DNA from: Betaproteobacteria bacterium
Lineage (GTDB): Bacteria; Bdellovibrionota_B; Oligoflexia; Silvanigrellales; Silvanigrellaceae
Direction: 5' to 3'
NCBI GenBank assembly: GCA_016868315.1
Contig: VGHE01000009.1
Coordinates: 1 to 64,000, forward strand
DNA: 64,000 nucleotides
In this document: positions 8,082 through 26,997 of the stretch, in pieces
Position numbering within the stretch: the first letter of the stretch is position 1
How the letters are laid out: every line of letters begins with the position of its first letter
Translations under genes and position numbers: made by a program
The notes under the pieces: generated by a model
Seen by the model: only the letters and a program-made list of their open reading frames with translations
Database searches by the model: none
What the model was told of the DNA's origin: nothing

Positions 8082-8753
8082 TCAAGGGGCAGCGGATGGC
8101 TGCTGGAGAGCAACCTGCTTAGCGCCTCTGCGCAGAGAAACTTCCTGCAGCAGCATATCAATCAACATGAGAGCAATGCCTACGTTGATTGCCACGTCGG
8201 CCCAATTGAAGACCGGAAAGGAGTATTCCCAGCCAAAAATCTTCCAGTGAAAATGGAGAAAGTCGATAACGTACTTGAGCAGCACGCGGTCGATAAAATT
8301 CCCGGCCGCTCCAGATAAAACGAGAACCAACGAGGTACGGGCTAGACGCTGACCGGGATGCGAGCTCCTGAAAAGGTAGAGAATCATGCCGGAAACAAAC
8401 ACGGTAACAGTATAAAAGAGCCACAAACGAATGTGTTCGGGCGTATTTGCAAACGAGCCCCAGGCAGCGCCGGGGTTACGCACGTAGGTGAGGTGGAAAT
8501 CGACCCAGTTGGCGCTCATGGTACTGCGCTCCATTCCCTTTTCGGTGGCAAGCGAGGGTGATACGCCCCAGGTCATGACCCGGTATGAATCTCCCCGGTA
8601 GCTGCGCAGGTCGGTTTCATGGGACCAGGTCATGTATTGACGTTGGGCATGATATTTTGTGGTCTGGTCGAGCCCAACCATGGCCAGGAAGAGCAAGATA
8701 TAGCCGAACATGATAAGACGACCGGTGCGCTGCGGCTGAAGTTTAGATTCCAT
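8082..8753 (-). CDS. lspA: Lipoprotein signal peptidase (signal peptidase II)
   Basis: DQTTKY, VRNPGAAWG, GAAGNFIDRVLLKYVIDFLHF, FNWADVAINVG: LspA catalytic Asp motifs. Start moved to ATG 8753 (MESKLQPQRTGRLIMFGYILLFLAMVGLDQTTKY). Confidence 0.9.
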   Translation of the reverse strand: MESKLQPQRTGRLIMFGYILLFLAMVGLDQTTKYHAQRQYMTWSHETDLRSYRGDSYRVMTWGVSPSLATEKGMERSTMSANWVDFHLTYVRNPGAAWGSFANTPEHIRLWLFYTVTVFVSGMILYLFRSSHPGQRLARTSLVLVLSGAAGNFIDRVLLKYVIDFLHFHWKIFGWEYSFPVFNWADVAINVGIALMLIDMLLQEVSLRRGAKQVALQQPSAAP

Positions 8754-8800
8754 TCGGATTCCTTCATTAGGGTCGAGACCACGACGAGGAGTATGAAAGC

Positions 8801-10993
8801 ATGACTGCCCCCGAAAAGGCAATTGAATCCAGGGACGTTCGGCTGACTCCCGATGAAATCGCCAAACTGAAAGGCATCTGTGCTCGCACCCTGAGCGCTC
8901 AACCTCAATTGGCACATTGGCTCAAAAACATCGAAGTGGCTCCCGGTGTGGAGTTGCCGTTTCTTCCCATCCGGTGCTTCAGGCTCTTAAATGTTTCTCG
9001 ATTTCTCGAGCCCGAGGAAAATTCAAAACCGGAGTGGATTGCTGAATTCTTGTCGAGCGGCAGCACCCAGGCACAACGCGCACGCCACCGCATGTCAAAT
9101 GAAGGTCTGGAGAGCTATCGCCAAAGCGCCCTGCAAGGCTGGCAGAACGCTTGCAAACGCCTCGGAATACCTCCGCAGACGCCCGTCTTGAGTCTTGTTC
9201 CACCGGGCGAAAGCATCCCCGACAGTTCTCTCTCTATGATGCTCTCGTTTTGGCGTGACGCGGGCGTTCCGGTTCACTTTGTTGATCTCACGTCTTCTCC
9301 ACAAATGCTCGAATCATGTTTCAAGCAACTTCAACAACGCACAGGCAGGCTCCCAGAGTTTATTCTTTTTGGAACTTCACTGCACCATTTGCAGGTCTTG
9401 CAATGGCAACAAAATGTTCGTCCGGGGCAGCCCTTTTTGGATGCCGTACGGGTCTGGTGCTTCGATACAGGAGGAACAAAAGGCCGCACACAATCAACGC
9501 ATCAAGCAGAGCTCCACTCAGGTCTGAGGAGTTGGTTTCCGAGGCACACGCAGGTCGGCTTTTTATCTGAGTACGGGATGTGTGAACTGGCTTCTCAGGC
9601 CTACTCGCTGCAATCGCCCCATTCTGATTCGTTCGCATGCAGCCCCCAACTCAGAGCCGTTGCGGTCGCCCCGAAGATGAATTGCATTTTAGCGCATGAA
9701 CACAACGGCTTTCTTGGGTTCATCGATTTTGCGAACACGGATTCCTGGCCCTGCTTAATTAGCGAAGATTTGGGAATGACTCTATCGCAGCCTGAGTTCA
9801 GTTTCCGGTTGTCTGGACGAGCTCCCGATGCAACGCTCAAAGGCTGTAGTCTTAACGTTCGCGACACCTATCGATTTGATTTGGAGAGTCCCCCATCTGC
9901 TTCCATCGGGGAATACACAGAGGTGCTTCTGCAGGGCTCGCATGCACAGCCCCAAGCGCGCGCCATGCTCTCGGCCGAGAAACTTTTGCAATCACTCCCT
10001 GCAGGCCACTGGCCTGCACCTGCACTGAATGATCTGCGCGCAAGCCTGAGTGGTTGGGACACCGACCAAGCTGCAATCGCTTCATCTCCAAAGAAACTCA
10101 CTGACGAGCATATTGCTATCGTCACCTCTGCAAACATACCCATCACCTGGCTTTTTCCTGCCGTGCATGCGTGGCTCATGAACGCGCGTGATGTGACACT
10201 CTACCTTCCATCACTGCGCCCAGATGACCCTCTGACCGCGCTTGTGCGGAAACAAATTGTAGACTTGGCAGAGGCCTTCAACCAACAGACGGCTATTGAT
10301 TTCATCCAAGTGCGCAACCACCGCCTATTTCAGGAGAATTCGAACAAAAACAACTCAACCCAACGGATCCTTGTTTTCGGAAGCGATGAAACCATACGTA
10401 CGCTCAGCAGTGCATGCGCGCGGCTGGCACGCCCCCCGCATTTTATTCCTCTGGGACATTTCCAAAATGCACTCAAGCTCACCGAAACAAGTCATCCCGG
10501 AGAGTGCGCAGAGCTCTGTTCACTCTGGCTGGGACGCGGCTGCCTCACGCCGCTGCAGCTTGAAGCTCCTCGTGCTTGGACAAGCAATTTTTCTCGAACA
10601 TTCGCCGCAGAGCTTTTCTCAAGACTTATTGAAACGAGAAAAAAACGTATTGAAGCAGCTGAGAGCTGTGGTGTTGATGCCATGCAAGCGTTCTCACACC
10701 AACACAATCTTGCAGAGCTTTACGCCCTCGTGGCATCACACTCACTTGATCTCGATGTAAAGCACTGCAGCTTGACCGGAACCGTGGTCGTAAACGCAAC
10801 GCAATGTGCAACACTGCCCCCGACAGTTGTCTCAAAGCTCACTGACTTTTCTGGCTGCGGTTGGATAAACTTGGTCAACGACGGACAACTCACACCGCTG
10901 CCAGAGCACAATCCGTGTCCTGGACTGTGCGAGCCACATCAGGGAATGTCTTGGTACAATTGGTTTTTCAGAACCATGCCCAGCGGCGCATGA
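8801..10993 (+). CDS. Fusion protein: N-terminal LuxE-like acyl-protein synthetase domain + C-terminal LuxC-like acyl-CoA reductase domain
   Basis: 730 aa. N-half: FILFGTSLHHL, WCFDTGGTKGRTQS, GFLSEYGMCELASQAY (LuxE-like pattern). C-half: SANIPITWLFPAVHAWLMNARDVTLYLPSLRPDDP, ILVFGSDETI, LCSLWLGRGCLTPLQLEAP with a candidate catalytic Cys (LuxC-like). Family assignment by motif recognition. Confidence 0.72.
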   Translation: MTAPEKAIESRDVRLTPDEIAKLKGICARTLSAQPQLAHWLKNIEVAPGVELPFLPIRCFRLLNVSRFLEPEENSKPEWIAEFLSSGSTQAQRARHRMSNEGLESYRQSALQGWQNACKRLGIPPQTPVLSLVPPGESIPDSSLSMMLSFWRDAGVPVHFVDLTSSPQMLESCFKQLQQRTGRLPEFILFGTSLHHLQVLQWQQNVRPGQPFLDAVRVWCFDTGGTKGRTQSTHQAELHSGLRSWFPRHTQVGFLSEYGMCELASQAYSLQSPHSDSFACSPQLRAVAVAPKMNCILAHEHNGFLGFIDFANTDSWPCLISEDLGMTLSQPEFSFRLSGRAPDATLKGCSLNVRDTYRFDLESPPSASIGEYTEVLLQGSHAQPQARAMLSAEKLLQSLPAGHWPAPALNDLRASLSGWDTDQAAIASSPKKLTDEHIAIVTSANIPITWLFPAVHAWLMNARDVTLYLPSLRPDDPLTALVRKQIVDLAEAFNQQTAIDFIQVRNHRLFQENSNKNNSTQRILVFGSDETIRTLSSACARLARPPHFIPLGHFQNALKLTETSHPGECAELCSLWLGRGCLTPLQLEAPRAWTSNFSRTFAAELFSRLIETRKKRIEAAESCGVDAMQAFSHQHNLAELYALVASHSLDLDVKHCSLTGTVVVNATQCATLPPTVVSKLTDFSGCGWINLVNDGQLTPLPEHNPCPGLCEPHQGMSWYNWFFRTMPSGA

Positions 10994-12974: not shown

Positions 12975-15900
12975 ATGACGGGACGAATCAGAGAAGACCA
13001 AGCTCACTGGAGCAAATTGATCTTTCACAGCTGGATTGGCCCACTTTTACGAGTGGGCCATTTGCGTCCCATCACGCTCGATGACCTCCACCCGCAACCA
13101 CCACTTGAAGACTGCCTCGAAACCACCTCGCCCCTCTTCCGCGCGGCCTACCGCGGCAAGGTGCTGGCAGCACTACTGGCTGCTTTCCGCCCCCGATTTG
13201 TGCGCATCTTTTGGTTTTTGAGCACTTTGACCGCCTTGGGGTTATTGCGACCACTGCTTCTGCGTGAACTCATCCAACGCTTCAGTCCGGGCGAAGGAGT
13301 GCAGGCACAAAGCTTTTTGGCCTGGATAGAAACTCCGTTGGGCATGGCCTGCTTTGCTGTCAGTTGTTTTGTGCTGCTTGGCTTTGTTCGTTCGCATTTC
13401 CTGCGCCACTGTTTCAAGCTCACCTGGTCTATGCCAGGTTTGTTAAGGCATGAAGTTTATCAACGCCTGCTCCATCTCAAGTCAGCTCAACGCAATCAGC
13501 TCACAGCAGGCGAATACGTTAACCTGGCCACACGTGACTGTGACTCGACCTCCATGCTGCCCTTTCTGCTCGAACCACTGCTCTACCCGGTCACGATCGC
13601 TTTGTATTGCATCATGCTCGTCTCGTTTTTAGGTCCCTGGGCACTGTTAGCTGTCGTTGCTCTCGCTGCAGTTGTGCCTTTGGGACGCCGCCTGGAGCGA
13701 CGCATGAGTGATCTTGCGTCACGGGTGCGTGAGCACTCACGCATTCGACTCGGAATTCTCAGCGAAATTCTGACAGGAATCCGGATCATCAAGTTTCATG
13801 CATGGGAGGAGCGCTTCTCCAAAAAAGTACTCGTTGTGCGTGGCAAAGAGGTTGCTCTGATGCGCGAGCGAGCGCGCGTGGCTGCCCGCCACAGCGCACT
13901 CACAGCACTTCTGCCTATTCTGACGGGTGCAACGGTTGTCACTTTGGTGTCGTGGTTTACAGGAGTGCCCTCAACCGCCGACGTTTTTGCATCGTTTAGC
14001 GTGATTACTGCACTCGTCGGAATTTTCAGTGAAATTCCGGATCATCTGCAAAGCGCCACAGAAATCCGGGTGAGTCTCGACCGCATAGGGCGTTTTCTTG
14101 GTGAAGGAAGCAACACTTCAGAAGAGCCCCTGCTACCCAACACAAATTCCACGCAGTTAAACCTGCGCAACGCGACATTTATTCGCCCGGTTGCAGCCAA
14201 TACGCAGAGCCAAAGCCCTGCATTGCTGGGTATCAACTTGAGCCTCGACAAAGGAAACTGTGTGGCGGTTGTCGGCAGCATTGGGGCGGGAAAATCCACT
14301 CTACTGAGCGCATTATTGAGTGAGCTCACACTCACTGCGGGGGATGCACAACTCCCCCATCCCGTTTGTTTTGCGCCACAAATTCCTTGGAATCAAAACG
14401 CTTCCGTCAAAGACAACATCGTCTTTCAGCTCCCTTTTGATTCAGAGCTTTTCAGTCGTGTTGTGCATGGAGCAGCGCTCCAAGATGACCTCGACAGATG
14501 GCCTGCAGGCCTCGAGACCGAAGTTGGCGAGCGTGGAATCAACCTATCGGGTGGCCAGAAGCAACGCCTTGCCTTGGCGCGCACAGCCTATGCGAGTCTC
14601 CAGCAAGGTGTGGAAACGATAATTTGGGATGACCCATTCAGTGCACTCGATGAATCCGTTGCAAGTCACGTTTTTCAGACACTCCTCCAGAAAGAGCTAA
14701 TGGGACGCACGCGGATATTCTGCACGCACCGCATCGATTTTGCTTTGCGCGCAGACTGGGTTGTTGTGATGGAGGCGGGAAGGATTGTTGAACAAGGCGA
14801 ACCTGCTCAACTGTTGCAGCTTCAGGGCTCGTTTGCACGCTTGCACGGACTGCACATAAAAACACGTGGCGAGGAGCTCGTTGCGCACTCCTCAAGTGCC
14901 GAGTTGGCTCCAAACTCTGAAACTTCTACGCGCAGTGTTTCGGGCAAGCTCACAACCGACGAGCAAATCACTCTCCCCGTGTTCAATAAAATAGCCCTCA
15001 AAATTTATTCTAAGGCACTCGCCCCAGCACTTGGACTCCTTGGCGTTGGGTTTGTGTTCCTTCTCCCCCGCCTAACCGACATCGCATCGAACCTCTGGCT
15101 CGGGCATTGGACGTCGCACCCGTCCCAGGTTGCCATCACGACTGCCGTGGTCGTTTTCGCGCTTCTAACCTTTGTGACTGTTGTGGCCGAGCGCACGCGC
15201 TCAGTGGTACTCTTCGATGGTGGAGTTAAGGCGGGAACACGTTTATTTGAGAATTTACTCTCTGGCGTGATGCATGCCCCGATGCGCTTTTTCGATACTT
15301 CGCCCCAGGGAAGAATTCTCAACCGGTTCACCTCTGACACCAGCGCAGTCGACAACTCCATGCCTTCCTCGGTAGGCCAATTCCTGACCTCGCTCATTGG
15401 GATTTTCGCCTCCCTGCTTCCGGTGATTTGGAGTCAGCCGCCCACATTGATTCTCTTCCTTCCTGCGCTTGTTCTCTACGTTTGGCTATTTAAATGGGTA
15501 CGCAAAGCGCAGTTGCGCCTTAATGCACTCTCTCAGGTGGTGCGCAGCCCCTGGATGTCGCTCACAGCTGAAACACTCCCTGGGCTTTCCGTCGTGCAAT
15601 CACTCCAAGCTCAGCCACGCTTTCTTTCCCACTACACGAAGCTCATCAATCGTCACATCGCAACGGGTTTCTACACCATTGCAACCAACCTCTGGTTCGC
15701 CTTTCGTCTTGAGATGCTGGGAGTAGCGCTGGTGGGTGGATTTGTTTTACTGCTCGCTCTTAACCCAGGGCAGACTTCCCCCATGTTAACCGCCGTCGGA
15801 CTCACCTTCAGCCTTCAAATGATTGGTATTCTTGGGGGCGTTGCACGGAGCCTGCGGATGCTGGAGAACAATTTGGTCTCGGTGGATCGGGTGTTGGAAT

Positions 15901-16634
15901 ATGCGCAGCTCGCTCCCGAAAAAGAAGAGCAGGTTGCTCAAACACCTGCACGTTGGCCAACGCGAGGCGAAATACGGTTCAACAACCTGACCGCTGCGTA
16001 TGCAGAGCATCTGAGTCCCGTATTGCGGAACATCTCGAGAACTATTCCTGCGCAAAAGAAGGTCGGTATTGTGGGGCGAACAGGAAGCGGCAAGAGCAGC
16101 TTGTTTCTTGCCATCACCCGCATCATACCGGTGCCGCTCAATATGATTTTTATTGATGAAGTGGACATTGCAACAGTTCCGCTGAAGGAGCTGCGCCGTG
16201 CGATTGCTATCATTCCTCAAGACCCTGTGCTTTTTTCTGGTTCCCTAAGAGAGAATCTCGATCCGTTTTCACTCTACCCCGATGCAGACATCGGAACCGC
16301 TCTGAAGCGAGCGCATCTGCTCCACCTCTGTCCTTCCGCCACTGCTGCTGCAGACTTTAAAATAGAAGAAAACGGCCGGAATTTAAGTGTGGGCGAAAGG
16401 CAATTGGTTTGTCTTGCGCGTGCATTGCTTGCAAAATGCCGGATTCTTCTCATCGATGAGGCAACAGCCAATGTCGATGTGCGAACCGATGCTCTGATTC
16501 AACAAACCCTGCGCGAAGAGTTTGCCGACTGCACCCAATTGGTCATCGCACACCGCACGAACACATTGGTAGATTGCGACTTTCTCATCCGACTCGACCA
16601 CGGGCAAATTCAAACGAGTGAGCGCCTTAACTGA
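12975..16634 (+). CDS. Full-length (TMD-NBD-TMD-NBD) ABC transporter, ABCC/MRP-like
   Basis: 1219 aa; NBD1 GSIGAGKSTLLSALL / LSGGQKQRLALART / IIWDDPFSALD; NBD2 GRTGSGKSSLFLAI / LSVGERQLVCLARALL / ILLIDEATANVD; ABCC-like GIRIIKFHAWEERF and SGSLRENLDPF. Confidence 0.9.
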   Translation: MTGRIREDQAHWSKLIFHSWIGPLLRVGHLRPITLDDLHPQPPLEDCLETTSPLFRAAYRGKVLAALLAAFRPRFVRIFWFLSTLTALGLLRPLLLRELIQRFSPGEGVQAQSFLAWIETPLGMACFAVSCFVLLGFVRSHFLRHCFKLTWSMPGLLRHEVYQRLLHLKSAQRNQLTAGEYVNLATRDCDSTSMLPFLLEPLLYPVTIALYCIMLVSFLGPWALLAVVALAAVVPLGRRLERRMSDLASRVREHSRIRLGILSEILTGIRIIKFHAWEERFSKKVLVVRGKEVALMRERARVAARHSALTALLPILTGATVVTLVSWFTGVPSTADVFASFSVITALVGIFSEIPDHLQSATEIRVSLDRIGRFLGEGSNTSEEPLLPNTNSTQLNLRNATFIRPVAANTQSQSPALLGINLSLDKGNCVAVVGSIGAGKSTLLSALLSELTLTAGDAQLPHPVCFAPQIPWNQNASVKDNIVFQLPFDSELFSRVVHGAALQDDLDRWPAGLETEVGERGINLSGGQKQRLALARTAYASLQQGVETIIWDDPFSALDESVASHVFQTLLQKELMGRTRIFCTHRIDFALRADWVVVMEAGRIVEQGEPAQLLQLQGSFARLHGLHIKTRGEELVAHSSSAELAPNSETSTRSVSGKLTTDEQITLPVFNKIALKIYSKALAPALGLLGVGFVFLLPRLTDIASNLWLGHWTSHPSQVAITTAVVVFALLTFVTVVAERTRSVVLFDGGVKAGTRLFENLLSGVMHAPMRFFDTSPQGRILNRFTSDTSAVDNSMPSSVGQFLTSLIGIFASLLPVIWSQPPTLILFLPALVLYVWLFKWVRKAQLRLNALSQVVRSPWMSLTAETLPGLSVVQSLQAQPRFLSHYTKLINRHIATGFYTIATNLWFAFRLEMLGVALVGGFVLLLALNPGQTSPMLTAVGLTFSLQMIGILGGVARSLRMLENNLVSVDRVLEYAQLAPEKEEQVAQTPARWPTRGEIRFNNLTAAYAEHLSPVLRNISRTIPAQKKVGIVGRTGSGKSSLFLAITRIIPVPLNMIFIDEVDIATVPLKELRRAIAIIPQDPVLFSGSLRENLDPFSLYPDADIGTALKRAHLLHLCPSATAAADFKIEENGRNLSVGERQLVCLARALLAKCRILLIDEATANVDVRTDALIQQTLREEFADCTQLVIAHRTNTLVDCDFLIRLDHGQIQTSERLN

Positions 16635-19471: not shown

Positions 19472-21214
19472 TCAAGAAAACTGTTTACTGAGAAGGAGTT
19501 CTATTGTGCTACGTGGCTTCAGAACAAGCCCGTGCTTGGCGAATTTATGAACGAGAGAGTCATATTGAGCCAAAATCTGCTGCACAGCTCCGCGGTAGCC
19601 CATCTCGGCAAGCTCCGTACGAATGCGATAGCGCATCGGGTTGCCGGCCATCGCCTCCATCACCTCATCGGTGGGGCGGAAAACCACAAAATCGACATCA
19701 GGATTCACATCCATGCTGTGCTTGAGCATCGATGAAAAACGAGTTTGCACAAGGCTCTTGATTGCCTGAACTGCGGTGAAATAACCGCCATGTCGCATCA
19801 CTGCGCCAGGGAAATTACTCGTGTAGGCAACCATTGGGTCAATCATCAGAATAAGCCCCGCGCCTTTGCGGATGGCCGTGTTGAAATCCGAAGAACTGGT
19901 CAACTGCCCGTCAGCAAACCAGTGCCCATTCACCCGCTCAGGAAGATAGAACGGCGGCAGTGCAGTGCTTGCACGAATGGCTTGGCTGATTTTGATATTC
20001 CGCCAAGGCTCCTCGCCAAAGACAACATGTTCTCCGGTGTCTTGGTCGGTTGCACTGATATAAAGTTCTTTGGAAAGCGCACTGATGTTGTCAGGAATTC
20101 CAAGACGCGAGAGTTGCCTTTCAATAAAGGCCTTGAGGCGCTCACCACGGAAGAAGCCTACGGGCACGAGACGTTGCAGTCGCACAACCACTTCACCTGG
20201 ATCAAGTGTCGAGAGCATCCGCAGCACGCCCACAATCCGGCTCACGATTTCCCCACCAGCCAAATCGAAAATAACATTCAGAGACAACGGGTCGAGTTTG
20301 CCATGACGCTTATAAAGTTGCTTGAGAATATCGTGCGAATGTGTTCCAGCTGCCAAAAACGATGCCAAAATGGCACCTGATGACACCCCACAAAAAATAT
20401 CGAACTGGTTGCATGCACTTCCGTCCATGGCATCGTCGAGCGCATTGGTGACGCCAATCGCGTAAATGTAACCTTCAAGCCCGCCGCCAGAAATACACAG
20501 ACTTTTTTTTTGCTGCGACATGCGGAACTCGTAGAGCTGACGAATTGCAAACAAAAAAAGCTGCGCTGAACTTGCCGGATCGGTGATCACGCCGCGCACA
20601 TTCGCAAGACCCAAATTAAAAGAGCGCGTCTGGTTGTCTTCGCTGGAAGGCAAAACAACAAGGATGCGTCGGGTTGGATAGTGATAGCCGCGTGGCGAAA
20701 AACTTGTGAGCGCACTGCGAAAGTCTTCAAAGAGTGGTGGCTTGTTCGAGCCATTGTTTGGCTCGTTCTGTTGAACGCTGTGCAAAACCTCTGCGGACGA
20801 TGAAGACTGGTCGCCATTATCGAGGGAACTTTCCCCAGCTAACTTCTGCGCTGCATCTGAAGCACGACGCTTCGAGGTTTTTTGATGCACACCAGGAATT
20901 TTAGGAAGTTGAACGCGCTCATCGAGAATAATCAAATCGGGTTCGAGGTGTGCAATGTTGTGAGCGACTTGAAAAATATCAGAGCAGAAGAAGATAGTGG
21001 CCGGCGCCTGCATCTCATGACCGGCGATAAACGACGGCAAGCGCCTTGCGAGTGCTTTGCTGAGAACGAAAGCTTCGCCCTGCCCTTGGAGCCCCGGCTC
21101 TGGTTGGATGCCCACACGACGAAAGTCGGCCGACAACTGAGCGAGCACGGCCTGGGTGCCCAAATAGACAACCCGAAATCCTCGCGCACGTTGATCGTTC
21201 TGTTCAGCCGTCAT
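19472..21214 (-). CDS. Patatin-like phospholipase with N-terminal extension
   Basis: SGGGLEGYIYAIGVTNALDDA (oxyanion Gly-rich), FCGVSSGAILASFLAAGT (GxSxG), WFADGQLTSS (DG catalytic Asp). ~220-aa N-terminal region of unknown function. Confidence 0.85.
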   Translation of the reverse strand: MTAEQNDQRARGFRVVYLGTQAVLAQLSADFRRVGIQPEPGLQGQGEAFVLSKALARRLPSFIAGHEMQAPATIFFCSDIFQVAHNIAHLEPDLIILDERVQLPKIPGVHQKTSKRRASDAAQKLAGESSLDNGDQSSSSAEVLHSVQQNEPNNGSNKPPLFEDFRSALTSFSPRGYHYPTRRILVVLPSSEDNQTRSFNLGLANVRGVITDPASSAQLFLFAIRQLYEFRMSQQKKSLCISGGGLEGYIYAIGVTNALDDAMDGSACNQFDIFCGVSSGAILASFLAAGTHSHDILKQLYKRHGKLDPLSLNVIFDLAGGEIVSRIVGVLRMLSTLDPGEVVVRLQRLVPVGFFRGERLKAFIERQLSRLGIPDNISALSKELYISATDQDTGEHVVFGEEPWRNIKISQAIRASTALPPFYLPERVNGHWFADGQLTSSSDFNTAIRKGAGLILMIDPMVAYTSNFPGAVMRHGGYFTAVQAIKSLVQTRFSSMLKHSMDVNPDVDFVVFRPTDEVMEAMAGNPMRYRIRTELAEMGYRGAVQQILAQYDSLVHKFAKHGLVLKPRSTIELLLSKQFS

Positions 21215-21255: not shown

Positions 21256-22263
21256 CTATGGATTTTCGTCCGCGCGCACAAATGTCAGATAATGTGGGTA
21301 TTCTTTCCATGCAGTCGAGAACGGAATGGGGGGTGAAGAGGCAAAAATCCCCAACGCTAAACCACCTCCACCGCCCCCCGTCAGCTTCGCTCCCAGGGCG
21401 CCGCACTTGCGCAGCTCAGCTACGCAGGCGTCGAGTTTTTGTGTTGAGACCTGCAAAGATTGCAGCGCCATGTGCGCCGCATTGAGGCTTTCGCCCAGTC
21501 CCAAGAGATCTCCTCTCTCCAGGGAAGCAATAACGCGCTCCGACAACTCACCAATCAACATAAAAGTAGATTCGACACTTTCACGCTGAGTCTCCCGCAA
21601 ATGCGCGACCTTTTGCACCATGGTGCGCGTCGGCGTGCGTTCACGGGTATCAATGAGTAACAACCAAAATCCTTTGCCGTTGCGCACAGAGCGTGAGCCC
21701 TGCTCGCGAACAAAACGAATGATTCCATCGGCCACAACCGTCGCTGCATCGAGACCGCTGGCACGACCATGAAAAAAACCATCGAGACGGTTTGCAAACA
21801 GTGAAATTTCGGCAGACGACCGCGCCTGTCCCAGTGTACGGGCAAGAGCCCTAAGCAAAGCAGCACTCAATGCGGCAGACCCACCCATTCCTGCGCCCAA
21901 CGGCAACTGCGAAAGGATTTCAATCTTCTGTGGTTCATACTTTTCGAGAAGATGTTCATTGTCTTCTTGATTAAGTAACAGACGCAAACCCAAATCGAGA
22001 GATTGAGTTAGCCGAAGCCTCTCCTCTAATGGCAACTGAACCAGCGTGTCTGCCATCGTCAGGCTCCAGACCTGCTGCCAGTGGTCGATTGCGTTCGCGG
22101 CGGCTGTTCCCTCTGGTGCCAGACGCTCACCGAATCTTACCGTTAGGGTTTGCGAACGGAGTGGCAGCGCTACGGCTGGGAAGCCCGCAACGGCAGCGTG
22201 TTCCCCAATCAAAATCGCCTTACCACAAGCAAGGCCTTCGGTTCCCGGTTCAGCGAGAAGCAT
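21256..22263 (-). CDS. mvk: Mevalonate kinase (GHMP family)
   Basis: CGKAILIGEHAAVAGFPAVALPL, LPLGAGMGGSAALSAALL, KLTGGGGGGLALG; cluster context. Confidence 0.87.
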   Translation of the reverse strand: MLLAEPGTEGLACGKAILIGEHAAVAGFPAVALPLRSQTLTVRFGERLAPEGTAAANAIDHWQQVWSLTMADTLVQLPLEERLRLTQSLDLGLRLLLNQEDNEHLLEKYEPQKIEILSQLPLGAGMGGSAALSAALLRALARTLGQARSSAEISLFANRLDGFFHGRASGLDAATVVADGIIRFVREQGSRSVRNGKGFWLLLIDTRERTPTRTMVQKVAHLRETQRESVESTFMLIGELSERVIASLERGDLLGLGESLNAAHMALQSLQVSTQKLDACVAELRKCGALGAKLTGGGGGGLALGIFASSPPIPFSTAWKEYPHYLTFVRADENP

Positions 22264-23530
22264 CGAGGTCTCCCTCCGCGAAGAAAACCGCTGCCTCTGC
22301 GAGAGGCAATTGTTTCAGAGATGAATGATAAGGCTCCTGGCGCAAGGCAGCTCGGAGGCCATGCGTTTCGCCTATTTCGATGGATTGCCCCTGGGTGTTT
22401 CCCCACAGCAACTGCGCTCCAGAGAAGCTCCCCTGCTGCGCAAGCTGAGTCAGGTAGCTTTGCATGTGCTGAGCCGCATCGGGCAGAAATAAAAAATGAG
22501 GATTGGCGCCCGCATCGAGCGTCCAAAGCATATTCGCAGCATGCGCATCCCTGTAGGTCACGAAGTGTGCAATAGCCTGAGAGGTCTTTCTGCTCATATA
22601 TTCGAGTTTGGTTGCGCCAGAGAGCATTACAGCGTGCATTTCAAAAGCATCGAGCTCGCTCAGACGCTGCACTGTGCGAAAGTCGCCTTCAGCAAGTGCG
22701 GTTCTAAATTCTTGCAGTCTACGCGGATAATGAGCCAAGCGGATATCTTGAAGGACACTCGTCTGTGCCAACACATGCCCCTCTGAACTCCCAACGGATT
22801 TTTCTGACGAATCAAGAACCAATACGCAATGCTGCATCTGTGCAAAGTTTGGATGCGTGGCAAGAGACATGGTTGCAGAGGAATCTCCACGTTCAGCCAA
22901 CTCCCAAACCACATACTGCGATGATTCGGGCGCCTGAGCAAAAACTGCTGAACGTGTCGCAGAACCACTTCCTATACGCGCCCATTCTGTCAGCCAAAAT
23001 TGAAGGTCGGCTTCGCTCAAAAACCGTTTGAGGTTCAGAAGATCGGCCACTGCTGCGGCCAACGCTGCGTACCCAGCCGCACTTGAGGCAACCCCACAGG
23101 CCGTTGGAAAATTATTCACACTCTCGACCCGAACTGCAATTTCATCGGCGAAACCATGGAGGATAGACTTAAGAAAGCCCTCCATTTTTGCAGGCATTGC
23201 AGCTTCGCTCGCATTCAGCATCAACGAAAAGTGAGGACGTTCCGCGAATGAAGGAGACTGGCCATCCTTTAACGGAACAAAACGCCCGCGAACGGTCAAC
23301 CGTGTATAAGCACGAAAGGCATTCAAGGTCAGGCTCACACTCGAGTTCATCGGAAGTTGGTGCAATCCGTTTTTCTTGCCCCAGTATTTGAGCAAAGCGA
23401 TGTTGCTCGGCGCACTGCTCCAGCCTTCATCTCCGGATTGCAGTAAAAGTTCACCGCGCTGCCGTGCGTGCAGAAGACGCTCAGATAGGGCTGCTAGCCG
23501 CGGATTCTGACGAAAAATATTTTCATTCAT
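22250..23530 (-). CDS. mvaD: Diphosphomevalonate decarboxylase
   Basis: APSNIALLKYWGKKNGLHQLPMNSSVSLTL, NNFPTACGVASSAAGYAALAAA, GSGSATRS. Confidence 0.92.
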   Translation of the reverse strand: MNENIFRQNPRLAALSERLLHARQRGELLLQSGDEGWSSAPSNIALLKYWGKKNGLHQLPMNSSVSLTLNAFRAYTRLTVRGRFVPLKDGQSPSFAERPHFSLMLNASEAAMPAKMEGFLKSILHGFADEIAVRVESVNNFPTACGVASSAAGYAALAAAVADLLNLKRFLSEADLQFWLTEWARIGSGSATRSAVFAQAPESSQYVVWELAERGDSSATMSLATHPNFAQMQHCVLVLDSSEKSVGSSEGHVLAQTSVLQDIRLAHYPRRLQEFRTALAEGDFRTVQRLSELDAFEMHAVMLSGATKLEYMSRKTSQAIAHFVTYRDAHAANMLWTLDAGANPHFLFLPDAAQHMQSYLTQLAQQGSFSGAQLLWGNTQGQSIEIGETHGLRAALRQEPYHSSLKQLPLAEAAVFFAEGDLDASR

Positions 23531-24591
23531 TGTTCTTCCTCAAATGCGAAGCTAACTTTCATTCGTGAAGCTGAAATCTGAGCTATGATTGCATCAATCT
23601 CTGACCGTGTTGCCATGACCCAAAGACAATCACCATGTCCTGCACCCATCGTCTTCCATGGAATTTCAGCGCGCTCACATGCAGCTACGAAATTCTGGAT
23701 TTCAGAGGTCTGAGGAAGCAGATCGGCTCGCAGTGCAAGGGCAGCTGCTTCGCGGCACAATTGCGCGGCGCGCAGAGAGGTCGGGTCTTGCAAAAATTGC
23801 CGCGCTAATGCTGTTTGTGCCTCAAAAAATCGTTCCGGAAGTTCTTTCCGAAGGGTGTTTTTCAAAACAGAACGGGTGTCAGAACGCACCCCCGTTTCCA
23901 CAAAGCATCCGAGCCGACGCAGCTCAGTTTGACCAATGGAGAGCGAAGAGATTTCAGGCTCAAAGCTATTCAAATTCAGAGCAGATGAATATCCCTTGTT
24001 CTTAAACTGCAGAACTCTGGCATGCGACTGCGTAGGAAAATGCAATGCTGACCACACTTGAACAGCAACATCATATCCGCTCCCACGTCCTTGAAGCCGC
24101 AGAAGTGAATCGAATAGGCGCTGCCAATATTTATCGATACCAACCTGCGCCATTCCAGACTGTGCAAAAAATTGTTCGGCCAGGGCAATGTGGAAGCAGG
24201 CCAACAACGCCGATGAACTTCCAAAACCCAAACTGGGAGAAAAACTGGCGACCACCTCGGCAGCCACTGAAACCCCAACCAGATGCGCTCGGAAGCCTGA
24301 AAGGTAACAGGCGAAATTCCGACGTTCGTCATTTGTTTCGAGAGCAAGGAATTCTTCAATTTGATTCGATTTAAGATGAATGGATCCCGATAAAAAGTCA
24401 CTCGCAAACTGGTGCGAAGCATCTTCTTCGCCAGAGGCGAAGGAAAAATCCAACGCCATGCGAAACTCAGGCAAGGTGACAACCACCGCATCACCGCCAC
24501 GCATCACGCCGTACTCACCAAAAAGCAAAGCTTTACCGGGAACAGAGATCGCCCGTAAACGGTTATGGTTCTTTTGCTGAATCGGTTCCAC
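23527..24591 (-). CDS. Phosphomevalonate kinase-like GHMP kinase
   Basis: SVPGKALLFGEYGVMRGGDAVVVTLP, PSLGFGSSSALLACFHIAL, KTMGAGHGDCLWVMA; position in mevalonate cluster. GTG start. Confidence 0.78.
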   Translation of the reverse strand: MEPIQQKNHNRLRAISVPGKALLFGEYGVMRGGDAVVVTLPEFRMALDFSFASGEEDASHQFASDFLSGSIHLKSNQIEEFLALETNDERRNFACYLSGFRAHLVGVSVAAEVVASFSPSLGFGSSSALLACFHIALAEQFFAQSGMAQVGIDKYWQRLFDSLLRLQGRGSGYDVAVQVWSALHFPTQSHARVLQFKNKGYSSALNLNSFEPEISSLSIGQTELRRLGCFVETGVRSDTRSVLKNTLRKELPERFFEAQTALARQFLQDPTSLRAAQLCREAAALALRADLLPQTSEIQNFVAACERAEIPWKTMGAGHGDCLWVMATRSEIDAIIAQISASRMKVSFAFEEEQ

Positions 24592-25906
24592 GTGCCACCG
24601 CCGTCAACGAGGGCATGTGATCATAGCGCCTCAGCATTTCGATGTTCTTCTCATGAAGCGCCATATGTCCGCGCTGAATTCCCTCGCAGGCCAAGGCGCG
24701 CAGAGCCGACAAATTCTGTGCCAAACCAACGCTCGCGATCAAACCGGAGAGTACGCCTGCTTCTGGATGGCCAAGCAAGGAGAGCGTCGACTGCACTGCA
24801 GGATGCAAACGTGTGACACCACCGACCGTGCCCACCGCCACCGGCACGGCAATCTCACCCACAAGCTGACCCTCTTCACCTTTGATCCAACGCGTCAGAG
24901 GTTTGTATTGGCCACTCATCGCTGCAAAGGCGTGAGCACCAGCTTCTACAGCGCGCCAGTCGTTCCCGGTGGCAATAACCACAGGGTCAATACCGTTCAT
25001 GATGCCCTTGTTGTGAGTCGCTGCACGATATGGATCGAGCTCGGCAAATTCCCATGCTTCAACGATCCGATCGACTGCTTCTGCACCGGTGAAGCCACCT
25101 ATTTCGAGAGTCTTGCTGTCCACCTCGCAACGCACACGCGTGATTCGGTGCACGGTTAGATTGGTGAGAATCTTCAGTCCAACGCGGCAAGGAATTGAGC
25201 TGGGCAACCAACGACCAATGTCTTCGGCGATCGTGTTGACGATGTTTGCGCCCATGGCCTCGCGCGTATCCACGTGCACATGAATGACGAAAACTCCAGG
25301 CTTGGGCAAAATACGGATCTCGACTCCTACTGTTCCACCGCCTCGGCTCAGCAAGCGAGGATGACACGCATTGGCCCGGTCGATGAGCTCAGCCCGAACG
25401 GATTCAAACCAACCAGGAACCCGCGCGGCATCTTCACTCTGGACTGTGAACTGGATTTGGCTGGTTGCAATCGATTTGGTGGGAGAGGTGAAAAAACCTC
25501 CGCGCGAGCGCGCGAGCTTCGCGCCATGACTCGCTGCAGCAACAACACTCGATTCTTCCACGGCCATTGGAATGAGATACTCACGACCGTCGATGAGAAA
25601 GTTTGTAGCCACTCCGAGCGGGAGGGCGAATGCACCGATGCAGTTTTCGATAAAGGTATCGGCGAGATCTTGAGAAAGATTCTCGGCACTAAAGAGCGCC
25701 CCTGCAGCATCTCGGGATAGAAAACCTCTTTCGACAAGCGCAGTAAGCCGCGCCTTAACGCTCATCTGTGCAAATCCAGAGATGCGACTCGACCGCGCAG
25801 CGGGGGCGTTTTTGACCTCTTCCCGCAATCCGCTTTCTACTCCATGCGCCAATACACAGGCGGACGTTTCGTTCGAAGCAACAATATTCAAATCGGAAGT
25901 TGTCAT
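24563..25906 (-). CDS. mvaA: Hydroxymethylglutaryl-CoA reductase, degradative-type (class II)
   Basis: FIENCIGAFALPLGVATNFLIDGREYLIPMAVEESSVVAAASHGAKLAR, GANIVNTIAE, NKGIMNGIDPVVIATGNDWRAVEAGAHAFAA. Confidence 0.93.
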   Translation of the reverse strand: MTTSDLNIVASNETSACVLAHGVESGLREEVKNAPAARSSRISGFAQMSVKARLTALVERGFLSRDAAGALFSAENLSQDLADTFIENCIGAFALPLGVATNFLIDGREYLIPMAVEESSVVAAASHGAKLARSRGGFFTSPTKSIATSQIQFTVQSEDAARVPGWFESVRAELIDRANACHPRLLSRGGGTVGVEIRILPKPGVFVIHVHVDTREAMGANIVNTIAEDIGRWLPSSIPCRVGLKILTNLTVHRITRVRCEVDSKTLEIGGFTGAEAVDRIVEAWEFAELDPYRAATHNKGIMNGIDPVVIATGNDWRAVEAGAHAFAAMSGQYKPLTRWIKGEEGQLVGEIAVPVAVGTVGGVTRLHPAVQSTLSLLGHPEAGVLSGLIASVGLAQNLSALRALACEGIQRGHMALHEKNIEMLRRYDHMPSLTAVARGTDSAKEP

Positions 25907-26997
25907 TGTTGACCCCTGAGTCTGAGACGAGAGGAGAGCTCATCGATTTTCTGAGCACCCGAACAGTACATTGCGATGCGCAGAGAACGAGTGAAGAATT
26001 GCATTTCTTGTTCGAGAGAATCTTCAGGCGATATGCCGTCGGAGGGATTCACCACCGCCCTAAAAAACGGAAGTCCGATACCGCACATCTGTGCTCCCAA
26101 GGCCAGTAGAACTGCGGCCTGCGCACCATCACGGATGCCACCGGTGGCCACCACCGCGCGCTCGGGTGCGACACCAAAAACCTTTGCCACCGGAACGCAT
26201 TCACGCACGGAATCAAGCGTAGACAAACCCCAGTTGCGAAAAAGTTCACCAAGGCGGTGTGTCAGCACATCACCCCGCTTGCCCTCAATAACACTCCAGC
26301 TTGTTCCGCCATTGCCACCCACATCAACTGCGGCAACACCGACCGAGAACAGACGCCGCGCGGTTTCAGCGGTCATACCAGAGCCAACTTCCTTGACAAT
26401 CACAGGTACGGGAAGGCGCTTCACCAGTTGCTCAATGTGAGGAAGCAAGCGGTCAAAGTTGCGTTCGCCTTCGGGCTGTATCTGCTCCTGCAAAGCATTC
26501 AAGTGAACCGCACATGCGTTGAGTTCGAGCTGCTCGGTCATGCGCACAACGGCATCAACTGCAACTCCGTAATTAAAGCTCACTGCACCTATATTGCCCA
26601 TGAGAAAAACACGCGGCGCGACTTTGCGCACATCGAACAGACGCCTGCTCGCAGGATCGCTAAGCATCAATTTCTGGGATCCCAACCCCATGGGAATATT
26701 CCAGCGCTCAGCAAGCAATGCGAGCGTTTCATTGATGCGTTGTCCCTCGCGCACACCTCCGGTCATGCCGGTGATCAGAAATGGCCACGAAAAAGTTCGA
26801 CCGAGAAACGGACGTCGGGTGTCGAGTGAATCTGGAGAGAACTCAGGCAGCGCTTCGGGCGCAAGAAAAAACTCAGTTCCTGCAACCGCACGCGACTCAA
26901 CATTCTGAGTCCGGCAGATATCGATGTGATGTTGCTTGCGCTCCGCAGCACGGTCGGGGGTGTCTTTGATGGCGGCCGACTCAAACGGATGCATCAC
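25903..26997 (-). CDS. fni: Isopentenyl-diphosphate delta-isomerase, type 2 (FMN-dependent)
   Basis: FSWPFLITGMTGG, MGLGSQKLML, HLNALQEQIQPEGERNF, VIVKEVGSGMTAETARRL, VDVGGNGGTSW, VVATGGIRDGAQAAVLLALGA. GTG 26997 or ATG 26994 start. Confidence 0.92.
   Translation of the reverse strand: MMHPFESAAIKDTPDRAAERKQHHIDICRTQNVESRAVAGTEFFLAPEALPEFSPDSLDTRRPFLGRTFSWPFLITGMTGGVREGQRINETLALLAERWNIPMGLGSQKLMLSDPASRRLFDVRKVAPRVFLMGNIGAVSFNYGVAVDAVVRMTEQLELNACAVHLNALQEQIQPEGERNFDRLLPHIEQLVKRLPVPVIVKEVGSGMTAETARRLFSVGVAAVDVGGNGGTSWSVIEGKRGDVLTHRLGELFRNWGLSTLDSVRECVPVAKVFGVAPERAVVATGGIRDGAQAAVLLALGAQMCGIGLPFFRAVVNPSDGISPEDSLEQEMQFFTRSLRIAMYCSGAQKIDELSSRLRLRGQQ

Follow-up and report, generated by a model that had tools for sequence, protein, structure and literature searches.

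Within the 64,000-nucleotide stretch of DNA that we analyzed (hereafter, the window), a single gene encodes a protein in which a LuxE-like half precedes a LuxC-like half (Table 1). In glowing bacteria, LuxE and LuxC are separate subunits that turn fatty acids into aldehydes. The frame is a genuine gene: of the 96 related genomes searched, 53 contain a homologue, sequences within the genus are 52% identical, and the matches are free of stop codons; the motifs by which it had initially been singled out (DTGGTKGRTQS, SEYGMCELASQAY, NIPITWLFPAVHAWLMNA and LWLGRGCLTPLQLEAP) are all present in the encoded protein.

Table 1. Coordinates of the fusion gene, its parts and its upstream neighbor in the window.
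Feature	Position	Strand	Basis
Fused LuxE-LuxC protein, complete frame, 730 aa	8801..10993	+	ATG at 8801, stop codon ending at 10993, no internal stop
LuxE-like half (ANL/PaaK fold), residues about 50-356	8948..9868	+	hhalign, direct profile match, Foldseek
Disordered linker, residues 346-385, with Cys349 at its start	9836..9955	+	pLDDT below 50
Cys349 codon (LKGCSLNV), putative acyl acceptor	9845..9847	+	Invariant in 27/27; aligns with residue 364 of 7xc6_E
LuxC-like half (ALDH fold), hhalign match over residues about 433-717	10097..10951	+	hhalign, Foldseek
Cys581 codon (GRGCLTP), putative catalytic, acyl-accepting residue	10541..10543	+	Invariant in 27/27; aligns with the cysteines of DQQAC and WNQLGC
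lspA (signal peptidase II), divergent upstream neighbor, outside the enzyme	8082..8813	-	TIGR00077, 107.7 bits against a cut-off of 73.95

Upstream of the fusion gene lies lspA, followed by a gene for a ClpB-type ATPase, and downstream lies a gene for a PilZ-domain protein. Because lspA and the PilZ gene are both carried on the other strand, the fusion gene stands alone rather than in an operon. A simple scan for promoters and terminators found no more signals at the gene than in shuffled sequence. Residues 4-33 of the protein resemble an NHLP leader, scoring 19.9 bits, below the NCBIfam cut-off of 40.

Elsewhere in the window, a mevalonate-pathway cluster (21256-26997, minus strand) encodes mevalonate kinase, diphosphomevalonate decarboxylase, a 354-residue protein (23527-24591, minus strand), HMG-CoA reductase and type 2 IPP isomerase, with four of the five products exceeding their NCBIfam cut-offs. 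At the thresholds applied, neither Pfam nor NCBIfam recognized the 354-residue protein; its position in the cluster and a GFGSSSAL motif suggest that it may be a divergent phosphomevalonate kinase. A 580-residue protein (19472-21214, minus strand) has a patatin phospholipase domain spanning residues 239-446 and an N-terminal half that received no assignment. A 1219-residue single-chain ABC exporter (12975-16634, plus strand) comprises two membrane and two ATPase domains, a full-length layout that is unusual in a bacterium; its top-scoring model is the eukaryotic MRP family, at a score below that model's cut-off.

Searched alone against Pfam and NCBIfam, the window protein matched neither LuxE nor LuxC, falling below the Pfam gathering scores of both PF04443 and PF05893, and it had no Pfam match to PF00501, PF00550 or PF07993. 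A sequence search of the PDB with the same protein returned nothing relevant, a PF04443 search of the source genome gave no match, and a scan of genome contigs likewise failed with the single window sequence as query but succeeded with an alignment of 27 members of the fused family (alignment A1). The Pfam comparison was the check proposed by the original prediction and, read literally, its outcome counts against the claim of LuxE and LuxC domains. The relatives show, however, that direct domain searches are blind here because the window protein is divergent; those relatives, together with profile-profile comparison and structure prediction, speak for the two domains.

The evidence is strongest for the N-terminal half. 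Aligned by hhalign with a set of 15 separate LuxE proteins, of which PF04443 recognizes 12, A1 matched over residues 50-356 at an E-value of 1e-62, and an HMM built from separate LuxE proteins matched the window protein directly, at 1.5e-47 for the whole chain and 4.7e-48 for residues 1-370. PF04443 itself matched 12 of the 27 alignment members at E ≤ 0.1, and a same-genus homologue, a 742-residue frame in sister genome G001, passed the cut-off with 32.6 bits (against 24.9). Motifs associated with adenylation are retained as FLSSGST (residues 83-89), TGGTKGR (223-229), SEYGMCEL (256-263), SED (321-323) and GR (339-340). By these sequence comparisons, the LuxE-type assignment of the N-terminal half is firm; motif conservation and a PaaK-like predicted fold further suggest that this half would form acyl-AMP in an ATP-dependent manner.

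The C-terminal half is more divergent, with a mean column identity in A1 of 0.27-0.38 compared to 0.47 for the N-terminal half. An HMM of separate LuxC proteins matched the window protein weakly (E = 0.5 for the whole chain, 0.23 for the C-terminal half alone), so that this half, in contrast to its LuxE-type partner, is assigned through relatives, profiles and fold. The same HMM reached E < 1e-3 in 13 of the remaining 26 fused proteins, PF05893 matched 11 of the 27 alignment members at E ≤ 0.1 (best 7.6e-8), and hhalign aligned A1 with nine separate PF05893 proteins at 4.3e-18; an unrelated ScpA-like alignment, used as a negative control, gave an E-value of 0.6 against A1. Taken together with the predicted ALDH fold, these results support a LuxC-type C-terminal half, as had been proposed.

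The divergence of the C-terminal half and its weak scores on LuxC models might alternatively mean that this half lacks reductase activity and that the protein serves only as an acyl-protein thioester maker or acyltransferase. The alignment with LuxC also begins at about LuxC residue 150, leaving most of the LuxC N-terminal sequence without a counterpart in the fusion. Were this half inactive, however, one would expect its nucleophile to have been lost, and Cys581 is invariant in all 27 proteins, as are several glycines of this half; the ALDH fold is, moreover, predicted with good confidence. We consider an inactive C-terminal half to be very improbable, and retain the reading of an active LuxC-type reductase.

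Structure prediction, also among the checks initially proposed, yielded the expected layout of an ANL/PaaK-like half joined by a disordered linker to an ALDH-like half. The AlphaFold2 model computed on A1 has a mean pLDDT of 83.7 and a pTM of 0.84, and contains a single long disordered stretch, the linker, which is also weakly conserved (mean column identity of 0.21 over residues 356-390 of A1). Foldseek comparison of the model with the PDB returned two sets of matches: PaaK (PaaK1) and further ANL-type acyl ligases, with a best E-value of 8.6e-9, and aldehyde dehydrogenases, starting at 9.2e-8. Neither LuxC nor LuxE structures appeared among the best 50 PDB matches, and a search of a viral fold library gave nothing below an E-value of 0.001. 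At the sequence level, by comparison, the A1 profile searched against all PDB sequences found 7xc6_E, a LuxE chain, first (E = 3.1e-9), followed by 7xc6_A, annotated as a 'long-chain acyl-protein thioester reductase' (E = 0.11, which taken alone is not significant); the top two matches are thus two chains of one LuxC-LuxE entry.

These alignments place two invariant cysteines at positions of known importance in the Lux system. Cys349 pairs with residue 364 of 7xc6_E, as counted from the alignment of A1 with the PDB sequence, and Cys364 is the acyl-transfer site of Photobacterium phosphoreum LuxE (PMC8301110). The counterpart of Cys581 is the DQQAC cysteine in 7xc6_A and the WNQLGC cysteine in PF05893 proteins. 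For the Lux reductase, Cys286 is given as the acylated residue (Lee and Meighen, 1997, as cited in PMC8301110); since the aligned residue of the 7xc6 chain was counted as 285, we infer that the two are the same. Cys349 lies at the junction between the ordered LuxE half and the disordered linker, a location suggesting that a mobile peptide cysteine may, by analogy, play the role of the phosphopantetheine of carboxylic acid reductases.

The alignments and the model thus show a two-domain architecture in which both cysteines and the adenylation motifs are conserved and a flexible linker is predicted. We judge it probable that the protein is a single-chain, ATP- and NADPH-dependent acyl reductase, likely acting on fatty acids, in which a LuxE-type synthetase is fused to a LuxC-type reductase and the acyl group is relayed from cysteine to cysteine. 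Following homology, the N-terminal half would use ATP to convert a carboxylic acid to acyl-AMP and pass the acyl group to Cys349 at the domain boundary; the flexible linker would then carry the thioester to Cys581 in the ALDH-fold half, where NADPH would reduce the bound acyl group to an aldehyde.

The distribution of the fusion indicates that it is a conserved arrangement. Among related genomes, homologues in the same genus, family and class are mostly stop-free frames of about 650-870 residues, generally one gene per genome, with two fused copies in Fluviispira. Because fused frames recur across many independent assemblies, a chance fusion by frameshift or misassembly was rejected. Searching genome contigs with A1 recovered 80 loci, among which full-length fusions occur only in Silvanigrellales, Oligoflexales or loosely named metagenome-assembled genomes that group with them. 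Going by the nearest of the named loci, the window itself comes from a member of Silvanigrellales. Loci from Verrucomicrobiota, Planctomycetota and Acidobacteriota instead carry a separate luxE with luxC downstream, often adjacent or overlapping and sometimes with an MFS gene between, and in Bacteroidota loci the luxE-like gene is likewise separate, but the flank examined showed no luxC. In a sample of 383 genomes, all above-cut-off LuxE matches outside the class fell in frames shorter than 510 residues, and separate LuxE proteins terminate a few residues past the cysteine equivalent to Cys349. Orthodox separate LuxE proteins of 388-404 residues with strong PF04443 matches also occur beside the fusion in five genomes of the same class (loci L118, L120, L122, L123 and L126 in G037, G030, G048, G057 and G035).

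A tree of the LuxE halves, unrooted and from a 'quick' search, contains three changes between fused and separate states, with a support of 91 on the separating branch, and is consistent with one fusion followed by two breaks. One break, in Oligoflexales (L081:7779-10078), splits the gene six codons past the LuxE cysteine, through an overlapping stop codon and new ATG, into a luxE of 380 codons and a luxC of 406 codons; this split is a natural break-point of the fusion. At the other (L055:7803-8867), only a LuxE half remains, ending in GCSLNVEEI, and downstream sequence holds no recognizable LuxC half.

In Silvanigrellales, the fusion gene stays near lspA and clpB, the lspA neighbor cluster recurring at other fusion loci, and in Oligoflexales it adjoins scpA/scpB/rluB-like and queA-like genes, named from reading of their sequences. 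This placement looks like vertical inheritance beside housekeeping genes and gives no clue to a pathway. Genome-wide, a PF00296 search revealed no evident luxA or luxB, in line with the absence reported earlier for the window: the matches, on another contig, are SsuD-like and other LLM oxidoreductases rather than luciferases, and a role in bioluminescence was rejected on this basis. The proposal of an acyl reductase acting outside bioluminescence thus stands as to the fused LuxE-LuxC type and the lack of luxAB; its 'long-chain' specificity and its use in aldehyde, alcohol or lipid synthesis stay conjectural.

Other searches of the source genome touched on lipid metabolism. Additional PF05893 matches proved to be ordinary aldehyde dehydrogenases, and PF02913 matches are long FAD/Fe-S proteins (L113, GlcD/YdiJ-like; L114, by reading of its sequence) and not evident AGPS candidates. 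Searches for a wax ester synthase and a CarF-type desaturase gave no genome match, but their positive controls were silent too, leaving absence unproven. A 358-residue frame in the genome matches PF07993. Published lipid analyses of Fluviispira list ordinary fatty acids and three unknown lipids, with no mention of aldehydes or dimethyl acetals.

Non-luminous settings for these enzymes are already known, as LuxE and LuxC homologues occur in Aeromonas flagellin glycosylation islands (PMC7874193) and a LuxE homologue occurs in Riemerella (PMC4772473); a LuxE domain is also reported in Vibrio cholerae RfbN, in tetronate synthesis (PMC4772473). Neither paper presents enzymology for the non-luminous homologues. 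The Aeromonas and Vibrio cases lend some weight to the idea that the fusion performs the same two-step chemistry on another acid (a small, sugar-linked or ACP-delivered acyl group) for a cell-surface glycan or secondary metabolite. Since no genes for such products adjoin the fusion in Silvanigrellales or Oligoflexales, where its neighbors are housekeeping genes alone, we regard this substrate range as unlikely and continue to favor a fatty-acid reductase. What is unusual, then, is the fusion itself, and in a literature search covering few subscription journals we found no paper naming a LuxE-LuxC fusion. The fusion puts a fatty-acid reductase otherwise familiar chiefly from bioluminescence in one chain, encoded by one gene, across an environmental lineage without known luminescence, and suggests that Silvanigrellales have aldehyde-derived chemistry that has gone unreported.

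Compared with the LuxC-LuxE (with LuxD) complex of luminous bacteria represented by 7xc6, the fusion draws on the same domain families and aligns at the acyl cysteines of both LuxE and LuxC, but differs in being one polypeptide, ordered E then C, with 78-118 residues separating Cys349 from the LuxC core; it has, in addition, a shortened and divergent LuxC half, and the genome search turned up no luxAB. With one chain, a fixed 1:1 LuxE-LuxC stoichiometry and transfer by a 'swinging cysteine' both become open to direct test on a purified protein. The separate LuxE proteins of Verrucomicrobiota, Planctomycetota and Acidobacteriota align with the full length of the fusion's LuxE half, yet those phyla use two genes on the same strand in place of one, and their LuxC proteins match PF05893 with E-values down to 8e-74, unlike the weak match of the fusion.

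A second comparison is to carboxylic acid reductases (CARs), which have an A-PCP-R organization, with phosphopantetheine on the carrier domain and a reductase of the SDR type. As proposed here, the fusion would share with CARs a single chain, activation by ATP, a covalent thioester on a mobile arm and NADPH-dependent reduction to an aldehyde. It differs in having no match to the PCP (PF00550) or SDR-type reductase (PF07993) families, and would instead depend on a cysteine of the peptide chain and on a reductase with an ALDH fold. On a broader and rather doubtful view, the protein could be a near-core, self-contained carboxylic acid reductase of the Silvanigrellales-Oligoflexales, CAR-like by convergence, with a linker cysteine substituting for phosphopantetheine and an output feeding an aldehyde-derived lipid. 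A one-chain acid-to-aldehyde reductase that, in contrast to CARs, needs no phosphopantetheine could serve as a biocatalyst.
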